Source: an uncultured Sporosarcina sp. (GTDB lineage: Bacteria; Bacillota; Bacilli; Bacillales_A; Planococcaceae). From it: a DNA stretch of 60,788 bases. Position 1 is the stretch's first letter, and each line of letters starts with the position of its first letter. Under the pieces are notes generated by a model. That model was not told where the DNA came from, ran no database searches, and worked only from the letters and a program-made list of their open reading frames with translations. A program made the position numbers and the translations under genes. The stretch spans positions 1 through 60,788 of the forward strand of contig CANSAF010000012.1 in NCBI GenBank assembly GCA_947644645.1. Reading direction: 5' to 3'. This document shows positions 1,815-47,237 of this stretch, piece by piece.

Positions 1815-2124
1815 CCCTTTTTCCCCCTCGTAACTTTTTATTTAATTGATTACTAGATTAATGAAGTCCGTAAGATCAGCCGATGCGCTTTTATACAAGA
1901 TGTTGATAAATGCATGCATCGGGTGGTCTTTGGGTTTTCCGATGTTTTCAGCGTAATTATGCAGATTTTCAGTAATATCTCGAGATTTTTCAGTGCAATC
2001 CACCTAGTTTTCAGCGCAATCGACAAGTTTTTCAGTGCCTTGATTTCAAGGTATTGATGCCCCACTACATTTCCCCGCCAAATGCCTTGCATCACTGACT
2101 GCAATGATGGAATCTGATTCCTTT
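1815..2124. other. 310-bp intergenic gap containing a 21-bp tandem array
   Basis: No convincing gene lies between the two acyl-CoA dehydrogenases. The stretch contains the 21-bp array at 1945-2049. An open frame crosses the array on the minus strand, but a stop-free 21-bp unit gives that automatically. I see no clear terminator here, so the two dehydrogenases may still be cotranscribed. Confidence 0.6.
1945..2049. repeat. 21-bp tandem array, five units, core TTTTCAGYGCAAT
   Basis: TTTTCAG recurs at 1945, 1966, 1987, 2008 and 2029, exactly 21 bases apart. The first ~7-13 bases of each unit are conserved (TTTTCAGCGCAATC-like); the remainder varies freely. The architecture matches the arrays at 8440, 19265 and 47131, although the core sequence differs. 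Confidence 0.85.
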
Positions 2125-3261
2125 TTAGTTTAATAAATGTTTCGAGATAACAATCTTTTGAATTTCGCTTGTGCCTTCGTAAATCTCCGTTACTTTCGCA
2201 TCGCGGAAATAACGTTCAACTGGATAATCTTCTGTATATCCATATCCACCAAATACTTGAATCGCTTCTGTCGATGTTTCAACTGCTTTTCTAGAGGCGA
2301 ATAATTTTGCCATCGATGCAAATTGTCCGCATGGCTTTCCTTCTTGACGTAGTAGTGCGGCACGGTAAACGAGTAATTTAGCAGCTTCAACCCCTGTTGC
2401 CATATCTGCCAGTTTAAAGCCAATGCCTTGTTGTGCCGAAATTGGTTTTCCAAATTGCTCACGTTCTTTTGCATAAGACACTGCTGCTTCTAGTGAAGCT
2501 TCCGCAATGCCCAGTGATTGCGCGGCAATTCCAATACGTCCAACATCTAAGTTAGCCATCGCGATTTTAAATCCTTCGCCTTCTTCACCTAGACGATTCA
2601 CTGCTGGAACGCGCATATTTTCAAAAGCAACTTCAACTGTACGTGAACCATGTAAGCCCATTTTTCTTTCATCTTTCCCGATGATTAAACCTGGTGTATC
2701 TTTATCAACAATAAATGCTGAAATACCATACGTTTTTTTCGAGCTATCTGTTGAAGCAAAAACAATATAAACATCTGCTTCTCCGCCGTTCGTAATAAAC
2801 ATTTTTGAGCCATTTAATATGTAATCGTCCCCGTCTTTTACAGCTCTTGTCTTTAATGCCCCCGCATCTGATCCTGCTGTTGGCTCCGTTAAGCAAAATG
2901 CCCCTAAATATTCACCCGTTGCCATTTTCGGTAAATAACGCGATTTCTGATCATCATTGCCAAACTGAATAATTGGGTTTGTCCCAACAGATGTATGTAC
3001 GGATAAAATAACCCCCATCACCGCACTTACTTTGGACAATTCATGAATGGCTAAAATATATGATAAAAAATCCATATCTGCTCCGCCGTATTCTTCTGGA
3101 ACTGTCATCCCCATTAAACCAAGTTCCCCCATTTTATTTAATAAATGACGTGGAAACTCTCCTGCTTCCATATTCGGAATAAATGGTTCAATTTCCGTTT
3201 TCGCAAAATCCCTTACCATTTGTTGCATCATTTCTTGTTCTTCTGTTAAACGTAAATCCAT
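2125..3261 (-). CDS. Acyl-CoA dehydrogenase, second paralogue
   Basis: A 378-residue acyl-CoA dehydrogenase with the C-terminal signature EIYEGTSEIQ (likely catalytic Glu at about residue 362) and the substrate/FAD region FCLTEPTAGSDAGALKTRA. It starts 31 bases after the stop of the 3-hydroxyacyl-CoA dehydrogenase, so they are probably cotranscribed. It is clearly related to the dehydrogenase at 675-1814 but not a recent duplicate, with differences throughout. It probably corresponds to MmgC/short-chain acyl-CoA dehydrogenase; exact substrate unknown. Confidence 0.93.
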   Translation of the reverse strand: MDLRLTEEQEMMQQMVRDFAKTEIEPFIPNMEAGEFPRHLLNKMGELGLMGMTVPEEYGGADMDFLSYILAIHELSKVSAVMGVILSVHTSVGTNPIIQFGNDDQKSRYLPKMATGEYLGAFCLTEPTAGSDAGALKTRAVKDGDDYILNGSKMFITNGGEADVYIVFASTDSSKKTYGISAFIVDKDTPGLIIGKDERKMGLHGSRTVEVAFENMRVPAVNRLGEEGEGFKIAMANLDVGRIGIAAQSLGIAEASLEAAVSYAKEREQFGKPISAQQGIGFKLADMATGVEAAKLLVYRAALLRQEGKPCGQFASMAKLFASRKAVETSTEAIQVFGGYGYTEDYPVERYFRDAKVTEIYEGTSEIQKIVISKHLLN

Positions 3262-3292
3262 TTTTCAAATCCCCTTTAGATGAAATCTACTC

Positions 3293-4144
3293 TTAGTTGT
3301 ATTCGTAAAAACCGCGTCCCGACTTTTTCCCTAACCAACCAGCTTTTACATATTTTCTTAATAATGGGCATGGACGATATTTTGAGTCCCCAAATCCTTC
3401 ATGTAAGGTTTCCATAATATATAAACATGTGTCGAGTCCAATAAAATCAGCAAGTTGAAGTGGCCCCATCGGATGATTCATTCCCAACTTCATCACTTCG
3501 TCAATCGCTTCTTTCGTTGCAACACCTTCGTATAATGTGTAAACCGCTTCATTAATCATTGGCATTAAGACACGGTTTGCAACAAATCCTGGGAAATCAT
3601 TGACTTCTACTGGCACTTTCGATAATTGCGTTGTCATATTTTCTACAGCTTCATAAACGTCATCTGCTGTCGCAAGTCCGCGAATGATTTCTACAAGTTT
3701 CATAACTGGTACAGGATTCATAAAATGCATACCAATTACTTTTTCCGGTCGCGTCGTCGCTTCGGCAATTTCTGTAATCGGTAGTGAAGATGTATTGGTC
3801 GCTAAAATCGTATGTGCCGGTGCAATTTGATCAAGTTCTGAAAAGATTTTACGCTTGATATCCATATTTTCCACTGCAGCCTCAATGACGATGTCTACGT
3901 TTTTAGCATCTTCAAGTGTTAATGATTTCGTAATTCGATTTAATACTGCGTCTTTTTCTTCTTCGGTGATGCGTTCTTTTTCTACATTACGCATTAAATT
4001 TTTCGTAATAACTGCAAGCCCTTTTTGAAAAGATTCTTCTTGAATATCATTTAAGTAAACTTCATAACCTGCTTGCGCACAAACTTGTGCGATGCCGCCC
4101 CCCATTTGTCCAGCACCAATTACCATTACTTTTTTAATCTCCAT
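3293..4144 (-). CDS. 3-hydroxyacyl/3-hydroxybutyryl-CoA dehydrogenase
   Basis: NAD-dependent dehydrogenase of the third beta-oxidation step (MmgB/Hbd family). An N-terminal Rossmann motif GAGQMGGGIAQ sits at about residues 10-20. The catalytic His lies in GMHFMNPVPVMKLVEI near residue 140, and the C-terminal domain ends with the usual GKKSGRGFYEY. I chose the ATG at 4144 (283 residues). The in-frame ATG at 4156 sits inside the purine-rich AAAGGATGGGG that serves as ribosome binding site for the later start. Confidence 0.93.
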   Translation of the reverse strand: MEIKKVMVIGAGQMGGGIAQVCAQAGYEVYLNDIQEESFQKGLAVITKNLMRNVEKERITEEEKDAVLNRITKSLTLEDAKNVDIVIEAAVENMDIKRKIFSELDQIAPAHTILATNTSSLPITEIAEATTRPEKVIGMHFMNPVPVMKLVEIIRGLATADDVYEAVENMTTQLSKVPVEVNDFPGFVANRVLMPMINEAVYTLYEGVATKEAIDEVMKLGMNHPMGPLQLADFIGLDTCLYIMETLHEGFGDSKYRPCPLLRKYVKAGWLGKKSGRGFYEYN

Positions 4145-4159
4145 TAATTTCCCCATCCT

Positions 4160-4460
4160 TTTTAAACTCGTCTTATACCTGTCGCATTTAAAAGCCTTTG
4201 TCAGCTTTTTGGTAATCCAGCTTCAATGCCTAGTCGCTCGAGTCACTTCAACTTTAAGAGAAAAGCAAAATACGCTTTTTTTTAAAGTCTCCAGTACTTG
4301 TCGCGACTGAACAGGCATTTTAGCTTTTTAGTAATCTAGCTTCCGAAAGCAAATGCTCGGGTCATAAGTCGATTTGGCTATGTGGCACAAAACGCCACGA
4401 CGCCAACTCGTCTTATGCCTGTCGCATTTAAACGCCTTTGTCAGCTTTTTGGTACTTCAA
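4160..4460. repeat. Pair of long-hairpin interspersed repeat units between hbd and thiolase
   Basis: The gap holds two consecutive imperfect-palindrome units, each opening with AT(C/T)(C/T)AGCTTC and closing with a TATGCCTGTCGCATTTAAACGCC-like run. The second has the internal arms TATGTGGC and GCCAC, matching the B units at 27700-28060 (TATGTGGCAAAGTACGCCAC). The repeat runs into the thiolase gene: its last three codons and stop are the repeat-derived CCAAAAAGCTGA, also present as non-coding sequence at about 4200-4213. No other gene is visible. Confidence 0.8.
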
Positions 4461-5634
4461 TCATGATGGCGTCTCCTTGGCCTCCGCCTGAGCAGATGGA
4501 GGCGATGCCTAGGCCGCCGCCTCTTCGTTTTAGTTCGTAAGCGAGGGTTAAAATGATTCTTGCGCCGCTTGCTCCGATTGGATGTCCGAGTGCGACGGCT
4601 CCCCCGTTGACGTTCACTTTATCTGGATCGAGTTTAGCAATTTCCGAGCTTGCCAGTGCGACGGCTGCAAATGCTTCGTTAATCTCAAATAAATCGATGT
4701 CTTCTAGTTTTTTTCCTGTCTTCTCTAGTAACTTATTAATGACCAATCCCGGTGTTTGCGGGAAATTTTTAGGCTCAATTGCAATTTCGGTATGTCCAAC
4801 AATGTATGCAAGCGGTGTTTTCCCTTCTTGTTTTGCGCGCTGCTCATTCATTAAAACGAGCGCACAAGCACCATCGTTTACCCCCGGTGCGTTTCCAGCG
4901 GTAATTGTACCGTCACGCCCGAAAGCTGGACGTAATTTCCCAAGTGTTTCAACGGATGTGTCACGTCTTGGTGCTTCATCTATCTCAACTACTTTCGGTT
5001 CCCCTTTACGCTGTGGGATTTCAACTGCAATAATTTCTTCTGCAAATCGACCTTTATCAATTGCTTCAATCGCAAGTTGATGACTGCGATATGCCCATTC
5101 ATCTTGTGCTTCACGTGTTAAATGAAATGTCTCTGCCGTTTCATTTCCATAAGTCCCCATATGCACACGATCCGGTGAAAATGAACAAGATAATCCATCG
5201 AAAATCATGCCATCTACTAATGTGCTATCGCCCATTTTCAAACCAAACCGACCTTTTGGTAAGTAGTAGGGTGCATTTGACATTGATTCCATGCCGCCTG
5301 CCACAATCACTTCTTCATCACCAAGGCGAATAATTTGATCGGCAAGTGTAACGCTTCGCATACCTGATGCACAAACTTTATTAATCGTTTCAGTTGTGAC
5401 AGCCCACGGTAACCCAGCTTTTACCGCAGCTTGCCTCGATGGAATTTGACCTTGTCCAGCTTGAAGTACAGTCCCAAGAATCACTTCATCGACATTTTCC
5501 GGTTCTACTTTCGCACGTGATAAAGCCTCTTGAATCGCTATTCCACCTAAATCACTCGCTTGTAATGTTGAAAGTGCTCCGCCCATTTTTCCAAATGGTG
5601 TCCGTGCGCCTTCCAATATGACTGTTCGACTCAT
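4441..5634 (-). CDS. Acetyl-CoA C-acyltransferase (thiolase, MmgA type)
   Basis: A 397-residue thiolase condensing or cleaving acyl-CoA at the end of beta-oxidation. The acyl-accepting Cys88 lies in NKVCASGMRSV, His351 in ALGHPIGASGAR, and the second catalytic Cys381 in ICSGGGQGDA. All three expected catalytic residues are present. It is the first gene of the thiolase-hbd-acd-acd-tetR cluster. The coding end (PKS, stop) is formed by an interspersed repeat, so the original C-terminus may have been replaced; thiolases tolerate this because the active site ends earlier. Confidence 0.95.
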   Translation of the reverse strand: MSRTVILEGARTPFGKMGGALSTLQASDLGGIAIQEALSRAKVEPENVDEVILGTVLQAGQGQIPSRQAAVKAGLPWAVTTETINKVCASGMRSVTLADQIIRLGDEEVIVAGGMESMSNAPYYLPKGRFGLKMGDSTLVDGMIFDGLSCSFSPDRVHMGTYGNETAETFHLTREAQDEWAYRSHQLAIEAIDKGRFAEEIIAVEIPQRKGEPKVVEIDEAPRRDTSVETLGKLRPAFGRDGTITAGNAPGVNDGACALVLMNEQRAKQEGKTPLAYIVGHTEIAIEPKNFPQTPGLVINKLLEKTGKKLEDIDLFEINEAFAAVALASSEIAKLDPDKVNVNGGAVALGHPIGASGARIILTLAYELKRRGGGLGIASICSGGGQGDAIMIEVPKS

Positions 5635-5753
5635 AATCGTTTCGCCTCCACTTTAATGATAGCGTTTACATTACTCGTTTCATTTTCGCTAACACCTAAA
5701 CTTCTACCATAATTTAAATGAATTTCCGATGAAAATACTCGATTGAATTCGCA

Positions 5754-5771
5754 TGACTGAACGCTCGCTCG
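5754..5771. promoter_or_regulatory. Candidate FadR-type operator upstream of thiolase
   Basis: TGACTGAACGCTCGCTCG read on the plus strand. Its reverse complement shares GAGCGTTCAGTCA-like sequence with the site at 8268-8285 upstream of fadF. Both resemble the Bacillus FadR box TGAATGAnTAnTCATTCA as I remember it. It lies about 120 bases upstream of the thiolase start. Confidence 0.5.
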
Positions 5772-5786
5772 AATACTCTCTAGAAA

Positions 5787-5992
5787 AAAAGAGGCTCTCC
5801 TAAAAGTTGAAAGAATGCAACTTTTGGGACGCCTCCCGTTTTTATGTGCGTGGAAATCATGCATTCTTTTACTATTTGGGCTTCGTGCCCGGTAAAGAAA
5901 GCCCTAAAATCAGTGTAACGCAAAAAAATAAACGGATAAACAATTGGGAGGCGTCCGAATAGCAAAGCTATTGGACAGCCTCTTTTTCAATA
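5787..5992. terminator. Two-ended terminator module between fadF and thiolase
   Basis: The left end is a hairpin (AGGCTCTCC...GGACGCCTC type); the right end is a second hairpin (GGCGTCC GAATAGCAAAGCTATT GGACAGCC) with T/A tracts outside. The middle carries a conserved block with TGCATTCTTTTACTATTTGGGCTTCG. Related modules lie at 31843-32026 and 58545-58742. The right-hand hairpin should terminate fadF transcripts, which implies a separate promoter for the thiolase cluster. Confidence 0.7.
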
Positions 5993-6032
5993 ATTTCAGT
6001 ATAGCTTATTTTTCAAATTGTCGCAATACAAC

Positions 6033-8180
6033 TTATTGTAAAACTGATTCAGTTTCTCCCGCTTCTTCCGCTACTTCTTCCCCAAAGATTGAACGTTCAA
6101 GCAGTTCAGCAATATCATATGTGCCAACTGAATCTTCTACTTCGATTGCTTTCGTTCCATCCGATAACATCGTTAAGCAATACGGACAGCCAGAAGAAAT
6201 AATCCCTGGACTCACTTCCATTGCTTGTTCCGTTCTTGCAACGTTAATACGGTGTCCAGTGTCTTCTTCCATCCACATGAGTCCACCACCTGCTCCACAG
6301 CACATGCCATCTTCGCGATTACGTTTCATTTCGATTAATTCGACACCTGGAATCGCTTTTAAAATTTCACGTGGTGGATCGTATACATCGTTATAACGCC
6401 CTAAATAACATGAATCATGGAATGTAATCGTTTCGTTAATCGGATGAACAGGTTTTAAAGCACCATTTTTCACAAGATCATAAAGCAATTCTGTATGGTG
6501 AACAACTTCTGCTTCAAATCCGAAATCCCGATACTCATTTTTAAAGATATTGTAAGCATGTGGATCGACTGTGACGATTTTTGTCACGCCTGCTTTTTCA
6601 AATTCCTTAATATTTGCTTCCGCCAACTCTTGGAATAAAAACTCATTCCCAAGTCGTCTCGGTGTGTCACCAGAATTTTTCTCTTTATTTCCCAAAATCG
6701 CAAACTTTACGCCCGCTTTGTTCATCAAATGTGCAAATGATAAAGCGATTTTTTGAGAACGGTTGTCAAACGCACCCATTGAACCAACCCAGAATAAGTA
6801 TTCAAATGGTTCGTCAGCTTTTTTCAATTCCTTTACCGTTGGAATATGAAGGTCTGGACGTGCGTCTCTCCATTTTTCTTTTTCTTTACGATTGAGTCCC
6901 CAAGGATTTCCTTGGCGTTCGATGTTTGTCATCGCGCGCTGTGCATCTGCATCCATTTTACCTTCTGTCATCACTAAATGACGACGAAGGTCAATAATTT
7001 TATCAACATGTTCGTTCATCACTGGACATTGGTCTTCACAGTTACGACAAGTCGTACATGCCCAAATTTCTTCTTCCGTAATGACGTCACCAATTAGCTG
7101 TGGGCTATAAATATCATCGATTGATGCATTTTCAAGACCTGCTGCTAATGCAATTTGGTTACCTTGTGTTTCTTTAAATGCAAATGTCGGAACCCAAGGC
7201 TGCTGTTTCGTTACAAGTGCTCCGTGATTTGTTAAATGATCACGTAATTTTGTAATTAAATCCATCGGTGACAACATTTTTCCAGTTCCTGCCGCTGGAC
7301 ACATATTTGTACAACGTCCACATTCTACACATGCGTAAAAATCAATCATTTGCAATTGTGAGAAATCAGTGATTTTACCAACACCAATTGCCGGCATTTC
7401 ATCGTCTTCTTCCATTTCTTCCATTGCTGAGAAGTCGATTGGCTCTAATTTCCCCGCGTTATCTAGACGGTGGAAATATGTATTGACCGGTCCTGCGATT
7501 AAATGTGCGTGTTTTGATTGTGGAACATAAACTAAGAATGTTAGTAAAATTAATAAGTGAATCCACCAACCAACAAAGAAAATTGCCGCTGCGCCTGTTT
7601 CTGGTAGGAAACTAAAAACTGTCGCAATCGCTGACGCAACTGGTTCAGTCCAAGATGCTTCATTGCCATGCCAAATCATATTCATCCCATTCGCTAAAAG
7701 CGTCGAAAGCATTAATCCGCCGATAAAGATTAAAACAAGCCCTGACTTCCAACCTCTTTTTAAGCGAACGAGCTTTTCAACATAACGACGGTGAAACGCC
7801 CAAACAACTGCCACTAAAATTGTTAATACAACGATTTCTTGGAAAAACGTAAATGCACCGTATACTGGACCGAATGGTAAATGTGATCCCGGCTTTAACC
7901 CTTTCCAAATTAAATCAATTGCCCCAAATTGAACGAGCAAAAATCCATAGAAAAATGCAACGTGAATCATTCCACTCTTCTTATCCTTCAATAACTTCTT
8001 CTGCCCAAATACATACACCCAAATATTTTGAAGACGTTCTTTTACACTGTCGTCAAATTCTTGTTTTCTACCTAATTTAATAAATTGCGTACGTGTTTTT
8101 ATTAAATAAGTGAATAAAGCAAGTGCATAAGCAGTTACCCCAAGAAATAAAATCCAATTGGCAACAAGTAACAGATTCAT
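6033..8180 (-). CDS. fadF: FadF-type (Fe-S) membrane oxidoreductase, HdrD-like
   Basis: This 715-residue protein resembles B. subtilis FadF (YwjF). Residues 1-220 hold about six membrane segments of the nitrate-reductase gamma/cytochrome b type. Two ferredoxin clusters follow, with cysteines near 284/287/290/294 and 375/378/381/385. The C-terminal part has HdrD-like CCG features (HDSCYLGR, MCCGAGGG). It is thought to pass electrons from acyl-CoA dehydrogenases/ETF to menaquinone. It has its own promoter at 8257-8286 with an embedded FadR-like site. A terminator module follows the gene. Confidence 0.9.
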   Translation of the reverse strand: MNLLLVANWILFLGVTAYALALFTYLIKTRTQFIKLGRKQEFDDSVKERLQNIWVYVFGQKKLLKDKKSGMIHVAFFYGFLLVQFGAIDLIWKGLKPGSHLPFGPVYGAFTFFQEIVVLTILVAVVWAFHRRYVEKLVRLKRGWKSGLVLIFIGGLMLSTLLANGMNMIWHGNEASWTEPVASAIATVFSFLPETGAAAIFFVGWWIHLLILLTFLVYVPQSKHAHLIAGPVNTYFHRLDNAGKLEPIDFSAMEEMEEDDEMPAIGVGKITDFSQLQMIDFYACVECGRCTNMCPAAGTGKMLSPMDLITKLRDHLTNHGALVTKQQPWVPTFAFKETQGNQIALAAGLENASIDDIYSPQLIGDVITEEEIWACTTCRNCEDQCPVMNEHVDKIIDLRRHLVMTEGKMDADAQRAMTNIERQGNPWGLNRKEKEKWRDARPDLHIPTVKELKKADEPFEYLFWVGSMGAFDNRSQKIALSFAHLMNKAGVKFAILGNKEKNSGDTPRRLGNEFLFQELAEANIKEFEKAGVTKIVTVDPHAYNIFKNEYRDFGFEAEVVHHTELLYDLVKNGALKPVHPINETITFHDSCYLGRYNDVYDPPREILKAIPGVELIEMKRNREDGMCCGAGGGLMWMEEDTGHRINVARTEQAMEVSPGIISSGCPYCLTMLSDGTKAIEVEDSVGTYDIAELLERSIFGEEVAEEAGETESVLQ

Positions 8181-8256
8181 TTCTCTTCCCCCTTTTTTTA
8201 CTTTTACTTACAAATAGTTTAGTAGATAAAAACTTTTCTGTCGATACTCTATTTTC

Positions 8257-8286
8257 AGTATAATTTATGAACGAGCATTCAGTCAA
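8257..8286 (-). promoter_or_regulatory. fadF sigma-A promoter with embedded operator
   Basis: On the minus strand the -35 is TTGACT (8281-8286) and the -10 is TATACT (8257-8262), with an 18-base spacer. The palindrome TGAACGAGCATTCAGTCA (plus strand, 8268-8285) overlaps the spacer and -35, an ideal place for a repressor. The match to the FadR box is good but by eye. Confidence 0.65.
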
Positions 8287-8439: not shown

Positions 8440-8567
8440 ACTTCGGGGGATTAAGGGGAAATTTCGGGGAAATATATGCGAACTTCGGAGAATAACTACC
8501 GCACTTCGGGCAATTACATTTAAACTTCAGGGAATTCCCATAAAACTTCGGGGAATCCCTGATTTTT
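8440..8567. repeat. 21-bp tandem array, six units, core ACTTCGGGGAAT
   Basis: TTCGG/TTCAG recurs at 8442, 8463, 8484, 8505, 8526 and 8547, spaced exactly 21 bases. The first ~12 bases of each unit are conserved (ACTTCGGGGAAT) and the remaining nine vary. It lies between the end of cblS and the fadF promoter. An open frame with a seven-residue repeat crosses it on the plus strand, without a supported start. The rest of the 390-bp gap holds only the fadF promoter. Confidence 0.88.
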
Positions 8568-8570
8568 CTA

Positions 8571-9254
8571 CTAATCATTTACAAACTTAATCGGCTGTAG
8601 TAAATCACCAAATAGCGTTTTTGCTTCATTGACACGATTAAATGGGATTTTTACGAGTATCGCTGTTGAAGGACCTGCTGAGTGATATAGATCTATCGTT
8701 TCTTCAATTTGAATTTTTTCATTGCCCATTAAACGACGAACTTCGTGTAAAATTCCTTTCGAACCGACGGGCCAAATTTGTCGGACGATTTTTTCATCCA
8801 ATGCTTGACGAATTTTTTTCATGGAAGCTACTTTCTCTCCATTCTGTAAAATTTCTTCCCCGACGAGCGGTTTTCCGTAAATAAACCATTGTCCTTCTGT
8901 CACTTCTTCAATCTGCTGTTTACCAATCATTGTCACTGCTACAGCAGATTGGAGTAGTTCCATATTCGTTTCTGTACTTCCACTAATTGTAAAGTCATTT
9001 TCTCCTGCTTCTGCTAATAATTCCCGAACACCTTGTATGTATTTTTCCCAGCTTTTTTCGCCACTAAAATTATGAACTAAAATATTAATTGGTTTTGCGT
9101 CGGCAGCCCATTGTTCAAGAAGCGTAACACGAGCAGCATAATAAGCTGTTAATTGATCGGACACCTGAACAATATCTTGTGCTTTCTCACCAATTCCACC
9201 TGAATTATCCGTCGTGACAATCAAATCTCCAACCAATTTAATCGAATTTCTCAT
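8571..9254 (-). CDS. cblS: Probable alpha-ribazole kinase (CblS), PurM/AIR-synthase-like
   Basis: A 227-residue protein with a PurM-like N-terminus: GDLIVTTDNSGGIGEKAQD resembles the ATP-binding/metal loop of AIR synthases. CblS phosphorylates alpha-ribazole so that CobS can use it, bypassing CobT. The ATG overlaps the stop of cblT (ATGA), indicating translational coupling. It is the last gene of the B12 operon. The assignment combines the PurM-like motif with adjacency to an ECF-type S component, the arrangement known from Listeria and Geobacillus. Without a search it could be another AIR-synthase-related protein. Confidence 0.8.
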   Translation of the reverse strand: MRNSIKLVGDLIVTTDNSGGIGEKAQDIVQVSDQLTAYYAARVTLLEQWAADAKPINILVHNFSGEKSWEKYIQGVRELLAEAGENDFTISGSTETNMELLQSAVAVTMIGKQQIEEVTEGQWFIYGKPLVGEEILQNGEKVASMKKIRQALDEKIVRQIWPVGSKGILHEVRRLMGNEKIQIEETIDLYHSAGPSTAILVKIPFNRVNEAKTLFGDLLQPIKFVND

Positions 9255-18959: not shown

Positions 18960-19165
18960 TCCACCATACCTATTCCGCGTAGGTCGTTCAGGTGATTCAT
19001 AAAGGCAGGTTTCCTGGCTTATGGCTTATCTACGTTTTGCCGCCTTCCTGGATTTTCTCCAGTGGCAAATTGGCAATCCGCTTCCATTTACAGTGGCGGG
19101 ACCGCATCGGATTTTAACCGACTTCCCTTTTAACTCGAAAAACTTCGAGCACCTTTATGTTTGGA
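18960..19165 (-). promoter_or_regulatory. Cobalamin (B12) riboswitch
   Basis: Read on the minus strand, all the conserved blocks appear in order: AAAGGGAA, GCGGTCCCGCCACTGTAA, a second GCCACTG, and the B12 box AGCCAGGAAACCTGCC (at about 19004-19020). Spacing and order match the AdoCbl riboswitch class. It controls the 13-gene corrinoid salvage operon, with the terminator at 18881-18909 as the output. Confidence 0.93.
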
Positions 19166-19264
19166 TTAATATTATTCTCATTTCCAAGTATACTATAAAA
19201 TTTTAAATTGTCGATAATTGATGAATTGATGGCAGATTGCAGGATTTTGACGGATTTTTAAATT

Positions 19265-19412
19265 GCGGGCAGATTTCGAGAGATTGCGGGCACATTTTCG
19301 AGGATTGCGGGCACATTATTTTTTCTGCGGACATTTTTGGCAATTGTGCGGACATTTCCATACTTTCTGCGGACATTCCTAGCAATTGCGCGGACATTAT
19401 TTTTCCCACGCT
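19265..19412. repeat. 21-bp tandem array, seven units, core GCGG(G)ACATT
   Basis: GCGG recurs at 19265, 19286, 19307, 19327, 19348, 19369 and 19390. All spacings are 21 except one of 20 at the boundary between two sub-types. The first three units read TTGCGGGCACATT-like and the last four TGCGGACATT-like. The array sits between the argS terminator and the B12 riboswitch. No gene is supported here. Confidence 0.85.
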
Positions 19413-19426
19413 TATCCAAATAAAAA

Positions 19427-19473
19427 AGGCATTCTCCAAAGTCTATTCTAGATTTTGGAGAATCGCCTTTAAA
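19427..19473 (-). terminator. argS terminator
   Basis: Inverted repeat AAGGC(G)ATTCTCCAAA / TTTGGAGAATGCCTT followed by a T-run on the minus strand, right at the end of argS. It separates argS from the B12 leader. Confidence 0.8.
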
Positions 19474-26722: not shown

Positions 26723-26896
26723 TTGACACCTCCGAAAACTACTTATTATATTGTACTCAAAAAATGAATAACTCGAAAGAAAAATAGTCAACAATTTAAA
26801 TAACTTTCTTTCGTATATTTTCTGATGAATAAAATGTTAGTGAATTGTACACACTGCTAGTAGTAAGAGATTATGAATATGGCAGGAGGCACGACA

Positions 26897-27529
26897 ATGG
26901 TGAAGATTAGACAGGATGCGTGGTTAGAAGAAAATGATGTTTTATTGGCAGAGACGGTTTTACGACATGTACGCGAAGGCAGCACGCAGCTTAGTGCTTT
27001 TGAAGAAGTTGGCGATGCATTAAATCGTACTGCAGCAGCTTGTGGTTTCAGGTGGAATGCAGTCGTTCGAAGAGATTATGAAGATGAGTTGGAAGAAGCA
27101 AAGAAAGAAAGAAAACAAGCAATCCGTATGCTTGGCAATGATTTTAAACGACGTGGTCAACAACTTTATACGCCGACACAAGGTGCTCAAGAAGAAAATA
27201 AAATTTCTATTCCTTTGTCTGCACTTTCTTTAGATACAGTGATTGCTTATCTTGTACGTTTACATCATAGTGGCGGCGGAGATATTGAATCTCTACGTTG
27301 GAAACAAACAGCAAAGGCAGCTACTGAAACGATTCATCAGTTAGAAAAAGAGATTCAACAATTGAAAAATGAAAATGAAACATTGCGCACAGACTATGAA
27401 CAATTCGTTCAAATTATGAATCGTGCAAGAAAGTTCGTTACATTAAGCGATGATGAGATTCGTAGCGCGCCAACTTTTACAATGGAGCCGAACGGAAATT
27501 TAATCGCAAAAGAGCCGCCACTTCAATAG
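26897..27529 (+). CDS. rsfA: RsfA-family prespore transcription factor
   Basis: A 210-residue protein with a Myb/SANT-like N-terminal domain (MVKIRQDAWLEENDVLLAET, then TAAACGFRWNAVVRRDYEDE) and a coiled coil near 145-185. The start has AGGAGG seven bases upstream. It belongs to the RsfA family, which tunes SigF-dependent transcription in the forespore. Gene order ywfO-rsfA-lipL follows B. subtilis. The last codons and stop lie inside its terminator stem. Confidence 0.85.
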   Translation: MVKIRQDAWLEENDVLLAETVLRHVREGSTQLSAFEEVGDALNRTAAACGFRWNAVVRRDYEDELEEAKKERKQAIRMLGNDFKRRGQQLYTPTQGAQEENKISIPLSALSLDTVIAYLVRLHHSGGGDIESLRWKQTAKAATETIHQLEKEIQQLKNENETLRTDYEQFVQIMNRARKFVTLSDDEIRSAPTFTMEPNGNLIAKEPPLQ

Positions 27530-27545: not shown

Positions 27546-28172
27546 GCGGTCTAAACGACGTTCTACACTTTTAAGAATATCCAGTTCCGAACGTCAGACC
27601 TTCGGGATGCTTCAACCTTGAATGGGAGGGAAAACCGCCCCCCATTTCAAGGTCTCCAGCACCTGTCAGGTCTAAACGACGTTCTACACTTTTAAGAATA
27701 TCCAGTTTCGAGTGCCAGCTCCTCGGGCCATAAGCATTCCATCTATGTGGCAAAGTACGCCACGTCGATGGAACGACTTATGCCTGTCGGAGCTAAACGG
27801 CACTCTCCACTTTTAAACTATCCAGTTTCGAACGTCAGACCTTCGGGATGCTTCAACATTGAAGTGGAGGGAAAAGCCCCCTCCATTTCAATGTTTCCAG
27901 CACCTGTCAGGTCTAAACGACGTTCTACACTTTTAAGAATATCCAGTTTCGAGTGCCAGCTCCTCGGGCCATAAGCATTCCATCTATGTGGCAAAGTACG
28001 CCACGTCGATGGAACGACTTATGCCTGTCGGAGCTAAACGGCACTCTCCACTTTTAAACTATCCAGTTTCGAACGTCAGACCTTCGGGATGCTTCAACAT
28101 TGAAGTGGAGGGAAAAGCCCCCTCCATTTCAATGTTTCCAGCACCTGTCAGGTCTAAACGACGTTCTCCACT
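27546..28172. repeat. Cluster of five long-hairpin repeats with a perfect 241-bp duplication
   Basis: Two unit types alternate as A-B-A-B-A, each starting TATCCAGTTTCGA. Unit A folds as GTCAGACC...AGTGGAGGG / CCCTCCATTTCAATG...GGTCT. Unit B folds as AGTGCCAGCTCC...CCATAAGC...TATGTGGC / GCCACGTCGATGGAA...CTTATG...GGAGCT...GGCACT. The block B1-A2 is repeated as B2-A3 at a 241-bp period with essentially no change; A1 is diverged (CCTTGAATGGGAGGG). Open frames within it repeat identically and are not genes. Related units lie at 4160-4460. Confidence 0.9.
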
Positions 28173-28173
28173 T

Positions 28174-29010
28174 TTAAGACAACATTTTTTTGTTTCTTTC
28201 TAGGACTCTGTTTAGGTAGAATGTGTAGAGTTCCATTTCTTCGTTTTGAAAGCTTTGTAGTTTGACGTTATTGGATAGGTTTTTCAATAGTGTTTGGATG
28301 CGTATGACGACATCGCTCACTGTGAGTGAAATGCCTAATAACTCTTCTAAAGAAGCCATCACTTCTGGTCGAATGGTTGGGTAGACGAATTTGGTTTCTT
28401 CACCTTTTAAGCCGATTTCGTACATATCACGAATAAGTTCGGCTCTTTTGGATCCGCTACCTTCAACACATAAATAAATTTGAACGGCAATTCCTTGACG
28501 CAGTCGTCTTTGTGAAATGCCTGCAAATTTTTTACCATCAATACTTAAATCGTATGAACCCGGGCAATAGGAGCCGACAATTTCATAGGCTTTAATTTGA
28601 TCGCCGGCTTCTGGGAATAACAAGCGAATAAACGCGAGCATTACGTCATAGCCCGTTGAAATATCGATAGACGTATCTTTTTCTGATAAAACAATGGAAA
28701 CATTTAAAACACCTTGGTCCAATACAACAGCCAATCCACCAGAATTTCGAACGATGGATGGATAACCTGCTTGTTCTAAATAAGCAGTCGCTTCCCCGAT
28801 ATAAGGGAGACGGTGATCTTGTATGCCTAGCACAACTGTCTCATCATGAACCCAAGTCCGTACAGTTGGCACGCTCATCCCCTGTCCAACAAGATGGCAA
28901 AGTGTATCATCTGCTGCAAAAGATTCCAATGCCGAACGTCCGCGACTACTCATCGACTCTTCAATTAAACGCCACTCTGGAACTTGTAAAAGCGCTTCAT
29001 GTTTTGACAT
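28174..29010 (-). CDS. lipL: Octanoyl-[GcvH]:protein N-octanoyltransferase (LipL)
   Basis: A 278-residue lipoate-ligase-fold amidotransferase moving octanoyl from GcvH to E2 subunits. It has RNSGGLAVVLDQGVLNVS, then GSYCPGSYDLSIDGKKFAG with the probable catalytic Cys149 and the conserved lysine. It resembles B. subtilis YwfL/LipL and precedes pta in the same orientation on the minus strand. The 3' end borders the repeat cluster at 28172. Confidence 0.9.
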   Translation of the reverse strand: MSKHEALLQVPEWRLIEESMSSRGRSALESFAADDTLCHLVGQGMSVPTVRTWVHDETVVLGIQDHRLPYIGEATAYLEQAGYPSIVRNSGGLAVVLDQGVLNVSIVLSEKDTSIDISTGYDVMLAFIRLLFPEAGDQIKAYEIVGSYCPGSYDLSIDGKKFAGISQRRLRQGIAVQIYLCVEGSGSKRAELIRDMYEIGLKGEETKFVYPTIRPEVMASLEELLGISLTVSDVVIRIQTLLKNLSNNVKLQSFQNEEMELYTFYLNRVLERNKKMLS

Positions 29011-41728: not shown

Positions 41729-41786
41729 TGCAATCTTCCTTTCCAGCAATATGTAATTTCAGTTTAACATATTGCATAGATGCATG

Positions 41787-42851: not shown

Positions 42852-42904
42852 GCCGCTCATCCTTTCTTTTTCATCTTTATACAATATGCAAATCACGAAA
42901 AAAA

Positions 42905-42946
42905 AAGCACTACCAAAATGTCCTTTAACATTTTAGTAATGCTTCT
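42905..42946 (-). terminator. Terminator of the YczE-like gene
   Basis: Stem AAGCA(TT)ACTAAAATGT / ACATTTTGGTAGTGCTT followed by T-run on the minus strand at the gene end. Confidence 0.8.
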
Positions 42947-42947
42947 T

Positions 42948-43580
42948 TTACCATAGAATTTCTTTTTCATTTTCCCCAGTAATTTTCAGTAATAATGCTT
43001 TAGATTGCGGCAATGTGTAATGAACAAATTGACCAATTAGTAATGCGATAATGACTGTTCCAACACCGACCGGTCCACCGAGCAACCATCCACAAATCGC
43101 AACGATGACTTCGATTGAAGTTCGTACACGTTTTATACTAAAATTAAATTTTTCCACAAAGACAAGCATAAGTGAATCCCGCGGTCCGGCACCAATATTC
43201 GGGCACATATAAACACCAATTCCATATCCCATGACAACAATTCCTAATACAAAAAGAATCGTTTGCGGAATAATTGCGGCTGGATCTGGCAATAACCAGT
43301 TGAAGATATCTATAAAAACACCTAGTAAAATCATATTCAACCAAGTTCCAATTTTAGGGAGTTCTCTAAATATAATTGCCGTTCCACCTATGATTAATAA
43401 CCCCGTTAAAATACTCCATGTACCGATTGTTAAGCCAAACTTTTTATAAAGGCCAACATGGAAAACATCCCACGGACCAATGCCTAACTTATATCCTTTA
43501 ATTGTCATCGAGATGCCGAGTGCGACAATAATTAGTCCACTCAAATAAAAAATCCATCTCCACATTTTGGTTTTATCCAT
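42948..43580 (-). CDS. YczE/YyaS/YitT-family membrane protein
   Basis: A 210-residue protein with five or six membrane helices. The opening GLIIVALGISMTIKGYKLGIGPWDVFHVG and the later IGAGPRDSLMLVF are the paired family motifs. Start at 43580 with AAGGGG upstream. Members are of unclear function; YczE affects Bacillus surfactin/sfp output. Monocistronic with its own terminator. Confidence 0.85.
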   Translation of the reverse strand: MDKTKMWRWIFYLSGLIIVALGISMTIKGYKLGIGPWDVFHVGLYKKFGLTIGTWSILTGLLIIGGTAIIFRELPKIGTWLNMILLGVFIDIFNWLLPDPAAIIPQTILFVLGIVVMGYGIGVYMCPNIGAGPRDSLMLVFVEKFNFSIKRVRTSIEVIVAICGWLLGGPVGVGTVIIALLIGQFVHYTLPQSKALLLKITGENEKEILW

Positions 43581-43682
43581 CTTGCCCCTTCTTTCTGTAA
43601 AAATATAAAAGCCATTCACAGTGACGTGAACGACTTGTCTCGTTAATTCTATTCTAGCATTCTTTCATCGCTTATGGCTTTT

Positions 43683-44171
43683 TTACTGACAAATATCGAC
43701 CTTTTTAGCTGCTGTTAATTGAACTAAATCATTTGGAGCGATTGCCATTTGTAAGCCAGGTTTCCCTGCACTAACAATCATTTGAGCTAAGTCATCTGCC
43801 GAGTGGTGGATAAAAGTTGGAAATAATCGCTTCATCCCAACTGGTGAACAACCTCCGCGAATATAGCCCGTTTCTTTCGTTAAATTCCCGAGTGGCAATA
43901 AATCCAGCTTTTTTACATGGGCGACTTTCGCTGCTTTTTTCAAATCTAATTCCTGCGCGACGGGAATGATAAATACATGAATACTTTTATCAATTGCTTT
44001 CGTCACAAGTGTTTTAAAAACTGTTTCTACTTGTTGACCGGTTTTCTCTGCGACAGAGACACCATCTGTTAACCCGTCACTAATATCATATTCAATTAAT
44101 GAAAAATTGATATTTTCACGTTCAATTAGACGCACTGCATTTGTCTTTACTGCCTTTTTCGATTTTGCCAT
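43683..44171 (-). CDS. ybaK: Cys-tRNA(Pro)/Cys-tRNA(Cys) deacylase YbaK/EbsC
   Basis: A 162-residue editing-domain protein that hydrolyses Cys-tRNA(Pro). The family pattern includes FKTLVTKA, AKVAHVKKLDLL and YIRGGCSPVGMKR. The conserved GGxSPxG motif is present (GGCSPVG). It stands upstream of the YczE-like gene and downstream of an unknown gene, in the same direction but with gaps. Confidence 0.9.
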   Translation of the reverse strand: MAKSKKAVKTNAVRLIERENINFSLIEYDISDGLTDGVSVAEKTGQQVETVFKTLVTKAIDKSIHVFIIPVAQELDLKKAAKVAHVKKLDLLPLGNLTKETGYIRGGCSPVGMKRLFPTFIHHSADDLAQMIVSAGKPGLQMAIAPNDLVQLTAAKKVDICQ

Positions 44172-44217
44172 CTAACTGCCCCTTTATAGTTATCTAGATT
44201 CAGTAAATTCTATCGTT

Positions 44218-44805
44218 TTATGCAACTCTTAAAAAGCTTGGCGTATCTATTTTAAATCCACTCATCTTTAATTGAACTTGATAAGAATAAGCTGAAACGG
44301 CGCGTTGAAATTTTTGTTGACGTTCAAATAATGTTTGTTCAATTTGGGTCGGGAATTCCATCGATAGTCGTGAAAACGCCGCTTTTGATTCCTCTTGAAT
44401 TGCCGTACTAACTGCTGTTGTCGCTTGCTGATCTAATCCTAATTGTGATTCGGCACGCTGGATATTGGATGAAGCTTTCGCCGCCAATTGATAATCCGCT
44501 GTTGTTGGTTCAGGTGTTGCCAGAGCTTCAGACCTAACATTTCCCCATAATGCGATAGTTTCTTCCAATGTTTTCCCAATTGGTAAGTGAATTTGCTTCA
44601 TTTGTCCCGCACCAAGTGAACTCGCTTCTTCCTTCACTTGTTCCGGTTCTGCTAGCTGATCACTAATTAATTTTAAAATTGCTTCTTGCGTATGATGATC
44701 ATACTTTTCATTTTTTCTGTATGCTTCTTCTGCATTTCTCCTTCGAACTCTTTCATTCAAAAGTAAATCATTTGAAGCCGTTTGTTGACTTAGTCCAATA
44801 TACAT
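44218..44805 (-). CDS. Hypothetical protein of 195 residues
   Basis: The start at 44805 has GGAGG seven bases upstream and opens MYIGLSQQTASNDLLLNERVR. The protein is helical and Gln/Ala/Glu-rich, with no membrane segment or catalytic motif. I do not recognise it. It lies between topB and ybaK in the same direction. Composition is like that of its neighbours, so there is no sign of recent transfer. Confidence 0.7.
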   Translation of the reverse strand: MYIGLSQQTASNDLLLNERVRRRNAEEAYRKNEKYDHHTQEAILKLISDQLAEPEQVKEEASSLGAGQMKQIHLPIGKTLEETIALWGNVRSEALATPEPTTADYQLAAKASSNIQRAESQLGLDQQATTAVSTAIQEESKAAFSRLSMEFPTQIEQTLFERQQKFQRAVSAYSYQVQLKMSGFKIDTPSFLRVA

Positions 44806-44887
44806 GGAACTCCCTCCAATCATTTTCATAAGATTTTATTACTGAAGCTACTATCCGTCGAACACCAACAGATAGTAGCTTCAACAC

Positions 44888-47047
44888 TTATTTATCGAAT
44901 AATTTTTTCAGAGCATCTGCCATTGCTGTGTTTTCTGGCTCATCTTGCTTTTTTAAATATTTTTGAACATCGCGTTTCGTTGCTTTTTTTCCACCTGATG
45001 CTTTCCGGCGCTTTTCAAAAGCAGACAGTTTTTCGCGATGTCCACAAGAACAGACGAAGATTTGTCCATCACCTTCACCGCGTAACTCCAAACGCTTTTT
45101 ACATTGTGGACATCTTGCATTCGTTTGTCTGGAAATGCTGCGTTTATAACCACATTCACGATCTTGACAAACATGCATTTTCCCACGTTTCCCATTCACT
45201 TCTAATAATAGTTTTCCACAATCCGGACAAGTACGCCCCGTCACATTATCGTGTTTAAACTTTTTATCGTCATTTTTTATTTCATTTACAGCATTTTTAG
45301 AAAAATTAATCATATCGACCATAAAATCTGACTTTTTCATTTTACCAGCTGCTATTTTTGTTAATTTTTGCTCCCATTCGGCAGTGAGTGCTGGTGACTT
45401 TAAATCTTCTGGAACGAGTTCTAATAATTGGCGACCTTTTGATGTCGTATACAAGTCATTGCCCTTTTTCTCGATTACAAAAGTTTTAAACAATCTTTCA
45501 ATTACATCTGCGCGCGTCGCAACTGTTCCTAGTCCACCTGTTTCCCCAATCGTTTGAATTAAAGCTTTTGATTCGCCTTGCATAAATTGTGTTGGATTTT
45601 CCATCGCTGCAAGTAAAGTTCCTTCATTGAAACGTGCTGGAGGTGTTGTCTTTCCTTCTGTCATGGTAACTGCACGAACTTTTAGTTGCTGGCCTTTTGT
45701 AAATGAAGGAAGCGTTGAAGTTTCTTCTTCATCGAAATCATACACTTTTTTCCAGCCTTCATCAGTCACCGTTCGTCCTTTCGCTTTAAACATTTCGCCA
45801 CCTATTGACAGTTCTGCTGTCACTTGGTCATAACGGAATGCCCCGAAAAAGACAGCTAAGAAACGATTGACAATTAACTCATACAAACGGCGTTCTTTAT
45901 CTGATAAGTCTTGTAAAATAGGTGTTTCTTCAGTCGGAATAATCGCATGGTGATCAGTAACGCGCTTATCGTCAATGACACCTTTTTGCGGTTGCGGTGT
46001 ACCTTTTCGGAGAATCGCATTTGCAGCTTTTCTAAATGGTGGCAAATCCACTGCTTTAATGCGATCAATTAACGTACTTTTCATATCTGTTGTTAAATGT
46101 TTTGAATCGGTACGCGGATACGTGACGATTTTGTAGCGCTCATATAAATTTTGTAATGTGGATAAAGTTTCTTTTGCTGACCAAGACCAACGTTTATGCG
46201 CTTCTTTTTGTAATTCTGTTAAATCAAATAGAGGCGGGGCTGGTTGCGATTTTGGTGTTGTTTTCACTTCTGTAATTTCACCACTATGCACCTGATCTAA
46301 TTTCGTTAATGCTTGTTCGATAAAAGCTTTGTCGAATGAGCGTGATTGACCTTTAGCATCTACCCATGTAAATTTCGCTTCTTCCGTAATCGCCTGTAAA
46401 CCGTAATAAGCTTTCGGCTTAAATTCATTGATTTGTTTTTCACGTTCAGCAATCATTGCAAGTGTCGGCGTTTGAACGCGTCCTGTGGATAATTGCGCAT
46501 TATATTTAACCGTCAGTGCACGCGTTGCGTTAATGCCAACAACCCAGTCTGCTTCTGCTCTTGCAACCGCAGCTTCGTATAAGTGTTCATATTGCTTACC
46601 TGGTTTTAAGTTTTTAAAGCCATCCTTAATTGCTTTATCTGTGACGGATGAAATCCATAAACGTTTAATCGGCTTTTTACTTTTTGCTTGTGCTAAAATC
46701 CAGCGTGCTACGAGTTCACCTTCACGCCCCGCATCTGTCGCGATGATCACCTCAGTTACATCTTGTCTACGCAACTGTGCTTTCACCGCATTTAATTGTT
46801 TTGTCGTTTGACGAATCGGCACGATTTTAAATGGCTCCGGCACAATTGGTAAATGTTCGAGTTTCCATTCTTTATACTCCGCGCCATATCCTTCCGGGTC
46901 TGCATGCGTGACAAGATGCCCGAGTGCCCAAGTAACGATATAATTAGTTCCTTCTAAAAATCCATTTCCTTTTTTATGACAACCGAGTACACGCGCAATA
47001 TCTCGTGCAACGGATGGTTTCTCTGCTAAAACAAGTGATTTTGACAT
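44888..47047 (-). CDS. topB: DNA topoisomerase III
   Basis: A 719-residue type IA topoisomerase. The N-terminal Toprim domain has LVLAEKPSVARDIARVLG and IIATDAGREGELVARW. The active Tyr lies in KIVTYPRTDSKHL at about residue 310. Two C-terminal zinc ribbons follow (CPDCGKLLLEV..CQDRECGYKRS; CPQCKKRLELR..CSCGHREK). Start at 47047 with AAGGGG upstream. It relaxes and decatenates DNA. A 21-bp array lies upstream. Confidence 0.95.
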   Translation of the reverse strand: MSKSLVLAEKPSVARDIARVLGCHKKGNGFLEGTNYIVTWALGHLVTHADPEGYGAEYKEWKLEHLPIVPEPFKIVPIRQTTKQLNAVKAQLRRQDVTEVIIATDAGREGELVARWILAQAKSKKPIKRLWISSVTDKAIKDGFKNLKPGKQYEHLYEAAVARAEADWVVGINATRALTVKYNAQLSTGRVQTPTLAMIAEREKQINEFKPKAYYGLQAITEEAKFTWVDAKGQSRSFDKAFIEQALTKLDQVHSGEITEVKTTPKSQPAPPLFDLTELQKEAHKRWSWSAKETLSTLQNLYERYKIVTYPRTDSKHLTTDMKSTLIDRIKAVDLPPFRKAANAILRKGTPQPQKGVIDDKRVTDHHAIIPTEETPILQDLSDKERRLYELIVNRFLAVFFGAFRYDQVTAELSIGGEMFKAKGRTVTDEGWKKVYDFDEEETSTLPSFTKGQQLKVRAVTMTEGKTTPPARFNEGTLLAAMENPTQFMQGESKALIQTIGETGGLGTVATRADVIERLFKTFVIEKKGNDLYTTSKGRQLLELVPEDLKSPALTAEWEQKLTKIAAGKMKKSDFMVDMINFSKNAVNEIKNDDKKFKHDNVTGRTCPDCGKLLLEVNGKRGKMHVCQDRECGYKRSISRQTNARCPQCKKRLELRGEGDGQIFVCSCGHREKLSAFEKRRKASGGKKATKRDVQKYLKKQDEPENTAMADALKKLFDK

Positions 47048-47130
47048 CTCTATGTCCCCTTTCTTCTTATTGCTCATTATAAAGGAGATTTTTGTTTTGT
47101 GCTGAGAGAAACTTTAGTCGGCTTGAAAAT

Positions 47131-47237
47131 TTATCCGCGCTTGGGGGTTCGTTATCCGCGTTCGGGTGGACTTTATCCGCGTTCAGGCGGAGTTTATCCG
47201 CGCTCGGAGGCACTTTATCCGCGCTATGATCGATTTC
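47131..47237. repeat. 21-bp tandem array, five units, core TTTATCCGCG
   Basis: ATCCGCG recurs at 47133, 47154, 47175, 47196 and 47217, exactly 21 apart. TTTATCCGCG is conserved while the following ~11 bases vary (TTCGGGTGGAC, TTCAGGCGGAG, CTCGGAGGCAC). It sits between the dinB gene end and the topB start. Confidence 0.88.

Follow-up and report, generated by a model that had tools for sequence, protein, structure and literature searches.

Several described systems place short repeated words in bacterial intergenic DNA. Plasmid-origin iterons consist of about five to seven asymmetric direct repeats of 17 to 22 bp, set about two helical turns apart beside A/T-rich DNA; initiator monomers bind them head-to-tail, and they are known from replication origins and copy-control loci only. 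REP and BIME elements are multicopy and intergenic, often lie after gene ends, and are built of palindromic hairpin units. The binding sites of LytTR regulators are reported to be 9-bp direct repeats, usually with 12 bp between them and in a minority of cases with 11 or 13 bp (PMC6193735), and those of RemA to be A/T-rich protected regions of 7 bp spaced by 3 bp (PMC8481266). The TAACTGA repeats of Beggiatoaceae are reported as heptamers that in most cases lie no more than several bases before a start codon, in many species (PMC4679880).

The window analyzed here is the whole 60,788-nt stretch of contig CANSAF010000012.1 from an uncultured Sporosarcina sp. (assembly GCA_947644645.1). It holds four intergenic arrays, listed here with their setting:

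1945..2049, minus strand: array 1, five units of TTTTCAG(Y)G at 21 bp (minus-strand core family GCACTGAAAA), with TTTTCAG starting at 1945, 1966, 1987, 2008, and 2029; flanked by two acyl-CoA dehydrogenase genes (675-1814 and 2125-3261).
8440..8567, plus strand: array 2, six units of AACTTCGGGGAATT at 21 bp, with the ACTTCGGGG-like core starting at 8440, 8461, 8482, 8503, 8524, and 8545; the gene at 8571-9254 has its stop 13 bp from the array start.
18987..19171, minus strand: cobalamin riboswitch (Rfam RF00174, 121.3 bits), downstream of array 3 and context rather than part of the array.
19265..19412, plus strand: array 3, three units of GCGGGCA followed by four of GCGGACATT, at 21 bp with a single 20-bp step; the seven GCGGGCA/GCGGACA words start at 19265, 19286, 19307, 19327, 19348, 19369, and 19390, between the argS terminator on one side and the cobalamin riboswitch promoter on the other.
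19421..19470, minus strand: argS intrinsic terminator (hairpin plus T-run) just before array 3, with its T-tract 46 bp past the stop and about -20 kcal/mol.
47131..47235, plus strand: array 4, five exact TTATCCGCG units at 21 bp, starting at 47131, 47152, 47173, 47194, and 47215; flanked by a DinB-like gene (47333-47746) and a topoisomerase gene (44888-47077).
47224..47258, plus strand: cap side of array 4, where the A/T-rich cap found after the final TTATCCGCG in arrays of this family is present in degenerate form.

The initial annotation had described these four arrays as one 21-bp geometry with diversified cores and a single 20-bp step in the third, and both points hold: Tandem Repeats Finder assigns period 21 to all four, and the short step runs from 19307 to 19327. 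The best lag-21 match counts per 63 bp are 39, 42, 40, and 49 for arrays 1 to 4. When each host intergenic region was dinucleotide-shuffled, none of 2000 randomized versions equaled them at lag 21, and none of 500 did so at any lag from 15 to 30; in a ranking of the window's 24 intergenic regions with a length of 105 bp or more, the arrays take the top four places. No Rfam family matched the arrays, the riboswitch being the sole match in the window. Twenty-one base pairs correspond to two turns of B-DNA.

The same period recurs across the genome. A pair-identity detector responded to repeats in coding sequence, to low complexity, and to stretches of N as well, and a detector of conserved cores took its place; since the window is a selected stretch, rates are given without it as well. 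The genome scan suggested by the initial annotation covered 35 further stretches (700 kb), where the strict core detector recovered five arrays with lag 21 and nothing at the 20 other lags; with the window included, the lag-21 count rises to nine (five of them outside the window) and the other 20 lags stay empty. Pairs of TTATCCGCG sought with spacing left free were 21 bp apart in 59 of 59 cases genome-wide (0 for the reversed control), as were 23 of 23 pairs of GCGGACATT. In three congeners, pairs of a further core, CGCATAAA, numbered 115, 65, and 147 (327 in total, compared with 1, 1, and 2 in controls), and their spacing was 20 bp throughout among the matches listed, which include none from G035 and part of those from G036. 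A survey that included loci of other species likewise recovered arrays at lags 20 and 21 and none at 19 or 22, in support of the helical phasing proposed at the outset; of 40 named stretches, seven have nearly identical spacers and look like ordinary tandem repeats (L051, L052, L053, L065, L076, L084, and L089); some of these are present in this survey, and all seven were left out of the lineage sets.

Exclusion from coding regions, a test proposed in the initial annotation, is supported with the strict detectors. Arrays that they find are intergenic, frequently past a terminator. A 10-mer four-unit detector gave eight intergenic matches and one coding match, and with the loosest setting of the core detector (10-mer, 2 mismatches, 3 units) the lag-21 matches were 16 in intergenic and also 7 in coding DNA, plus 4 intergenic matches at other lags. 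This split is valid inside the genus only, there being no usable gene models for outside stretches; the core detector gave one lag-21 match labeled coding in P. halotolerans, a label that is meaningless outside the genus. Applied to 400 kb of G059, the core detector recovered three intergenic arrays with lag 21, a single one with each of lags 23 and 27, and, at lag 18, two matches in coding sequence.

The cores fall into families. This genome carries 16 TTATCCGCG arrays and 10 GCGGACATT array segments, both sets found through exact pairs, and the GCACTGAAAA core (array 1 on the opposite strand) occurs at five other loci in the genome sample. Array 2 has a likeness at one other place (L098:15062), and its core as an exact pair pattern had no match in its own genome. 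The cores had been called unrelated, and they are indeed different words, but they are not one-off words, since the TTATCCGCG, GCGGACATT, and GCACTGAAAA families are dispersed over the genome. Five is the usual number of units in TTATCCGCG arrays, which are closed by an A/T-rich cap; the cap motif ATTTTTA/ATTCTTA is exact in 14 of the 16 arrays and degenerate in array 4 and L266. Across the same 16 arrays 76 of 78 core copies are exact, each array having been found via an exact pair; the named records were chosen for an exact triple core, and their core conservation is therefore partly a product of that choice. The cores TTATCCGCG, GCGGACATT, CGCATAAA, and GCACTGAAAA read as asymmetric. Core and cap are conserved against variable spacers, a pattern suggesting that selection acts on the core.

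Set beside the described systems, the arrays share with iterons several direct repeats at about two helical turns; they differ in occupying many chromosomal intergenic places, in having several cores and no common neighbor gene, and in that two of them have no plasmid match. Like REP and BIME elements they are multicopy and intergenic, but they consist of direct repeats with cores that read as asymmetric. They resemble RemA sites in being repetitive DNA, which a RemA oligomer is thought to wrap, but the 7-bp/3-bp spacing of those sites differs (PMC8481266). RemA itself was considered as a reader and rejected: PF04025 had no match in this genome, which is 99.88% complete, and the B. subtilis control was positive. 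With the TAACTGA repeats the arrays share a short word at many intergenic places with a patchy distribution across distant taxa, but those have one word in many species (PMC4679880), whereas here the word changes and the arrays lie past gene ends.

The most economical reading of this pattern is the one that the initial annotation had offered, a cooperative DNA-binding protein; we infer the protein, its cooperativity, and a barrier role. On balance we favor, by a modest degree of belief, the view that the arrays are cooperative sites of fast-diversifying DNA-binding proteins and act as inter-operon barriers or nucleoid anchors.

Comparison between species gives a mixed outcome for the refuting condition that the initial annotation set, namely arrays not conserved at orthologous positions. 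Past argS, an array starting about 45 to 85 bp beyond the stop is present at 9 of 29 congener loci in addition to this genome, mostly with a different core. By the strict detector 20 of the 29 loci lack an array over that distance, and the congener with the closest argS has none. The position is reused, then, but mostly with another word. A Planococcus array found independently of its core is carried by four species only, with altered core copies in two of them and with 5, 6, 2, and 6 units, counts from a locus comparison in which 17 of 23 loci were read and the other six were covered by the survey detector only. Such gain and loss of units, together with orthologous places with and without an array, would also be expected if the arrays were satellite-like products of replication slippage that multiply, drift, and stay unbound. 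Unit number in the other families is very variable, reaching about 28 in L198, and some long arrays contain recently duplicated multiunit segments (L097). Slippage would have to accommodate, however, a single exact period and no other, a cap common to arrays, and the fact that 16 arrays share one core while their spacers are no more similar within than between arrays (identity of 0.413 versus 0.376 in eight arrays). We consider this account unlikely, and prefer sites kept by a protein reader.

The position of the arrays relative to genes bears on what such sites might do. All four arrays in the window lie between co-directional minus-strand genes, as had been noted, but this is not a general rule: in a list of 23 genome arrays, which includes the window's four, matches of the loosest detector, and five stretches chosen for TTATCCGCG arrays, the neighbors were co-directional in 14, convergent in 7, and divergent in 2. 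A terminator precedes the array at 17 of 28 array-facing gene ends, with none at the other 11. In co-directional spacers the cap points toward the 3' end of the upstream gene in 25 of 31 cases, many of which are orthologues or double arrays (7 of 8 in this genome, 12 of 13 in Planococcus, and 6 of 10 in Neobacillus-like genomes). The six caps facing a gene start and the two divergent arrays do not fit a strict barrier rule.

Operators of ordinary local regulators, for example of the LytTR or OmpR type, acting on the next promoter would explain part of this. Array 3 lies upstream of the riboswitch promoter, the genome has four LytTR matches above the cutoff, and the geometry resembles LytTR direct repeats: the LytTR periods are 20 to 22 bp, TTATCCGCG with N12 fits, and CGCATAAA is an 8-bp core plus N12, although LytTR sites are a repeat pair just upstream of a promoter (PMC6193735), whereas the arrays here mostly have at least four units and are often away from one. 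Against this, 7 of the 23 arrays have convergent neighbors and no promoter that they could act on, the distance from array to gene start ranges from 48 to 403 bp in the same list, and the genes flanking the four window arrays are functionally unrelated. Nor do the lineages have a common neighbor: among 241 neighbor proteins, which form four small cross-lineage clusters, no gene family adjoins TTATCCGCG arrays in all three. Taken together, these points make local operators quite improbable as the general explanation.

Dispersal of a capped five-unit array as a mobile or copied element (a MITE- or REP-like cassette), with subsequent decay of the spacers, would account for the size, polarity, and cap common to the 16 arrays, and weak signals of unit rank appear in Planomicrobium Y74 (equaled by 0 and 1 of 300 shuffles) and at positions 14 to 21 of the Neobacillus-like arrays (4 of 300). 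In the genome studied here, however, sharing a rank does not make units more alike (the observed difference is equaled in 37 and 61 of 300 shuffles of unit order), viral contigs gave no match for three core patterns and 72,556 plasmid records none for two arrays, and copying alone would lose the core along with the spacers; we therefore give a cassette little credence. It is more doubtful still that the DNA curve itself is what matters, two-turn repeats adding to a bend. From wedge values that we took as given, arrays 1 and 2 are predicted to be strongly curved (end-to-end/contour ratios of 0.595 and 0.622, compared with about 0.9 in shuffles), but arrays 3 and 4 (0.912 and 0.910) are no more curved than shuffles, and a bend does not need an exactly conserved word. 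Curvature was accordingly rejected as a common property, arrays 1 and 2 being the only ones predicted to be curved. Decayed coding repeats of seven codons, which the initial annotation had named as a possible refutation, can be dismissed: open frames of 83 to 86 amino acids cross arrays 1, 3, and 4 and at least two of six frames are stop-free in each window array, but across 165 TTATCCGCG units (a set including four tandem repeat-like records) every frame has stops, in 9 to 165 units, and the 20-bp class, with the same anatomy, has a period that cannot stay in frame.

The reading that we favor, cooperative sites for diversifying proteins, could work as follows. The arrays would be DNA landing strips for sequence-specific, cooperatively oligomerizing proteins, with every 20- to 21-bp step offering one contact site in which about one helical turn is conserved and about one turn is nearly free; given one such site per step, we propose a head-to-tail row of protomers along a single face of the helix. 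In the TTATCCGCG family a complex may occupy about five sites (105 bp), with the A/T-rich cap closing a fixed side. Since each genome has several core families and core sets differ between species, such readers have probably either a common origin or a history of exchange, and their specificity would drift while the geometry of the oligomer stays. Such complexes would mostly stand past the terminator of an operon and, in co-directional spacers, mostly turn their cap to the upstream 3' end, and their likeliest role would be as an inter-operon nucleoprotein barrier that stops read-through polymerase and confines supercoils, or as a nucleoid anchor, rather than control over a defined group of genes. 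Among the observations that run against the proposal, the neighbor genes yielded no reader candidate, and the array at a given locus is dispensable.

A search of the open-license literature found no description of such arrays. More tentatively, and with somewhat less than even confidence, we suggest a hitherto undescribed, genome-wide chromatin-like system of Bacilli with tens of phased inter-operon nucleoprotein arrays per genome (a number that is extrapolated), in which the words of a reader family are replaced from species to species while period, polarity, and even place can persist, a bacterial analogue of fast-evolving satellite/reader pairs. If nothing reads the arrays, they would be a slippage product with an exact helical period, which would itself need explanation. 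If a protein does read them, they would represent an unnoticed layer of chromosome organization at operon boundaries in some Bacilli. Their core sets would then be a record of rapid change in DNA-binding specificity within a fixed geometry, and it would become directly testable how the recognition word of such a protein is switched at tens of sites per genome.

A base-by-base reading confirmed the four intergenic arrays described in the initial annotation, each repeating a short core at a 21-bp step, including the lone 20-bp step in the third:

Window 1945-2049: array 1
Window 8440-8567: array 2
Window 19265-19412: array 3, after the argS terminator (minus strand), containing the core GCGGACATT
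Window 47131-47237: array 4, five units of the core TTATCCGCG, beside the topoisomerase gene (44888-47077)

In each of the four host intergenic regions, the observed lag-21 match count was reached by 0 of 2000 dinucleotide shuffles and, when every lag between 15 and 30 was admitted, by 0 of 500; these regions are the top four among the 24 intergenic regions of ≥105 bp in the window. We regard the arrays and their exact period as real with high confidence. The window also carries a 241-bp unit in ∼2.6 copies at 95% identity (27551-28179); it lies in the spacer separating gene 26873-27529 from gene 28174-29010.

The host genome, placed in Planococcaceae by a family code in common with the Planococcus genomes, is a 3.36-Mb draft of 160 contigs, the window being one entire contig. 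A strict detector (8-letter core, four consecutive units, ≤1 mismatch, lags 15-35) was run on 36 stretches totaling 760,788 bp, comprising the window and 35 stretches (700 kb) chosen regardless of arrays. It recovered nine arrays, all at lag 21, with the 20 other lags empty; five lie outside the window, and four are the window's own. A 9-letter, three-unit detector found 13 intergenic and no coding arrays at lag 21 in sequence of which 85% is coding, and at other lags one intergenic match (lag 25) and three coding matches (lags 24, 27, and 30). The loosest detector (10-letter core, three units, ≤2 mismatches) reported 16 intergenic and 7 coding matches at lag 21, plus 4 intergenic matches at other lags; exclusion from coding regions, a check named initially, holds at lag 21 for the stricter detectors but not for the loosest. 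The 12 arrays within the 35 stretches would extrapolate to ∼60 per genome.

With spacing left free, pairs fall at a single period, so the three core families tested each have one exact period per genome. The pattern TTATCCGCG-N(10 to 14)-TTATCCGCG matched 59 times in the own genome, all at 21 bp (reversed control, none), and GCGGACATT pairs matched 23 times, again all at 21 bp (control, 0). In three congeners (other genomes of the genus), CGCATAAA-N(8 to 18)-CGCATAAA gave 115, 65, and 147 matches (controls 1, 1, and 2), with period 20 throughout among the matches listed for the second genome and part of the third. The TTATCCGCG pair is present in 8 of 261 family genomes (3 of 19 genera), and with 17 to 25 permitted its periods are 20 or 21 among the matches listed, being 21 in the own genome and 20 in two other family genomes. 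In a survey of fetched loci confined to lags 19 to 22, every array detected fell at 20 or 21, with 19 and 22 both empty.

Several other explanations were weighed. DNA curvature is disfavored as the common property because only arrays 1 and 2 are predicted to have it. Single window arrays each leave some frames open; across 165 units, however, stops occur in every frame, and a 20-bp class exists, so coding repeats were rejected. Sites for RemA, characterized in PMC8481266 as 7-bp regions spaced by 3 bp, were discarded because the own genome (99.88% complete) has no RemA (PF04025) match, while the Bacillus subtilis control has one. No Rfam family matches the arrays, and recent copying of cassettes is disfavored in the own genome.

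All 16 TTATCCGCG arrays located in the own genome (13 places) were read out, each found through an exact core pair; 11 have five units, two have four, two have six, and one has three. In these arrays, found via exact pairs, the core is exact in 76 of 78 units and one base off in two. A related A/T-rich cap, roughly CWAYRACATATTTTTAAYAAAAA, follows the last unit; 14 of the 16 arrays carry its motif (ATTTTTA or ATTCTTA) unaltered, and the window's copy and L266 have degenerate versions. Likeness between arrays is 0.66 for cap-unit spacers (positions 10-21), whereas internal spacers score ∼0.50 at positions 10-13 and 0.38 at positions 14-21; in eight arrays, spacer likeness is 0.413 within versus 0.376 between arrays, an about equal difference. 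Core and cap are thus conserved, with the spacers nearly free. Unit number is more variable in other core families, reaching ∼28 (L198). That array (L198:3748-4328, congener G036) has a 21-bp period and lies upstream of a topoisomerase gene, and the argS array of G036 has a different core and period 20. A special spacer, ATTATTTTTTC, precedes GCGGACATT units and is common to arrays of that family (window 19307-19335, L274, and L277); it is possibly the family's own cap.

The TTATCCGCG pair occurs in none of 67 congeners. Other cores are present: across 19 congener stretches (371 kb), the strict detector found five arrays at lag 21 and a single one at lag 20, the 19 remaining lags being empty. 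Among the 30 best-scoring argS loci of 68 genomes, own genome included, an array starts roughly 45-85 bp past the argS stop in 9 of the 29 congener loci and in the own genome, and these ten arrays have eight cores:

Cores of the argS-linked arrays
Own genome: TGTCCGCGCAAT
G059: ATGTCCTC, similar to TGTCCGCGCAAT
G025: CGCCCAATTAA
G036, G035, and G040: CGCATAAA
G014: CGCCAATAAA
G034: GTGACGGATA
G053: GCAATCAA
G039: TGCAAGCAAA

At 4 of 29 congener loci (L180, L181, L184, and L198), the topoisomerase gene likewise has an array on its upstream side, 60-119 bp away and with another core. Conservation at orthologous positions, a further check named in the initial annotation, gave a mixed result: the place is reused in part of the loci, but the cores mostly differ, and G052, the closest genome by argS among the best-scoring 30 loci, has no array after argS. 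Cores of the ATGTCC type occur at three places in G059 (400 kb), and Planococcus halotolerans has at least five cores within 200 kb.

Outside the genus, no strict array was found at any lag in 15 stretches (290 kb; two from the same family and 13 from other families of the class), and a looser pass gave four weak candidates at lag 21, including TTGCACCG in L136, a possible three-unit array at 21 bp (L136:3271-3425) whose genome belongs to a different family of the class. Eight 20-kb stretches from other genera of the family held one weak candidate (L241). Viral contigs had no match to three core patterns, and plasmids had none to two arrays. The TTATCCGCG triple (27 fixed letters), scanned over 84,980 species genomes, was found in 40 stretches; 7 of these resemble ordinary tandem repeats, and the other 33 come from Planococcus/Planomicrobium and from Bacillaceae (Neobacillus as well as species filed under Bacillus). 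The core is followed by different letters in each lineage (YTYRRG in the own, SCWA in Planococcus, AAT in Neobacillus-like genomes), suggesting that a similar word was adopted independently. One Planococcus locus was located through a flanking gene in 23 of 46 genomes, and 17 of these 23 loci were read. Four related species share an array there (5, 6, 2, and 6 units), its core mostly kept with altered copies in G225 and G235, and the remaining 13 loci read have none; the strict detector reports arrays at 3 of 23 loci, the two-unit array being below its minimum size. A dispersed repeat worded agaaaagcggaagcgcc occupies the spot of this array in other Planococcus loci (L247-L253) and also follows argS in two congeners (L170-L171).

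The neighbor genes of 23 own-genome arrays are co-directional in 14 cases, convergent in 7, and divergent in 2, against random-placement expectations of 0.64, 0.14, and 0.22 (p=0.03 for the excess of convergent and p=0.20 for the deficit of divergent placements). An intrinsic terminator precedes the array at 17 of 28 gene ends facing one and is absent at 11; array 3 has the argS terminator on one side and a cobalamin riboswitch promoter, read by eye, on the other. In co-directional spacers the cap points toward the 3' end of the upstream gene in 25 of 31 cases (own genome, 7 of 8; Planococcus, 12 of 13; Neobacillus-like genomes, 6 of 10), with p=0.0009, a value that overstates the effect because many cases are orthologues or double arrays.

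Iteron arrays, which serve plasmid initiators, and the direct repeats of LytTR regulators are precedents for the array geometry. According to PMC6193735, the LytTR repeats are 9 bp long and mostly 12 bp apart. The open-licence literature yielded no precedent for such geometry at many operon boundaries with species-changing words. It is quite likely that something sequence-specific constrains the cores, and we have low confidence in any particular protein as their reader. The layout of the arrays, with a word spanning roughly one helical turn and then one nearly free turn, repeated several times on one helix face with a directional end, is what a putative cooperative head-to-tail protein polymer would require. 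We lean modestly toward a full model in which putative cooperative DNA-binding proteins occupy the arrays, where, judging from array location and polarity, they may act as a barrier or anchor.
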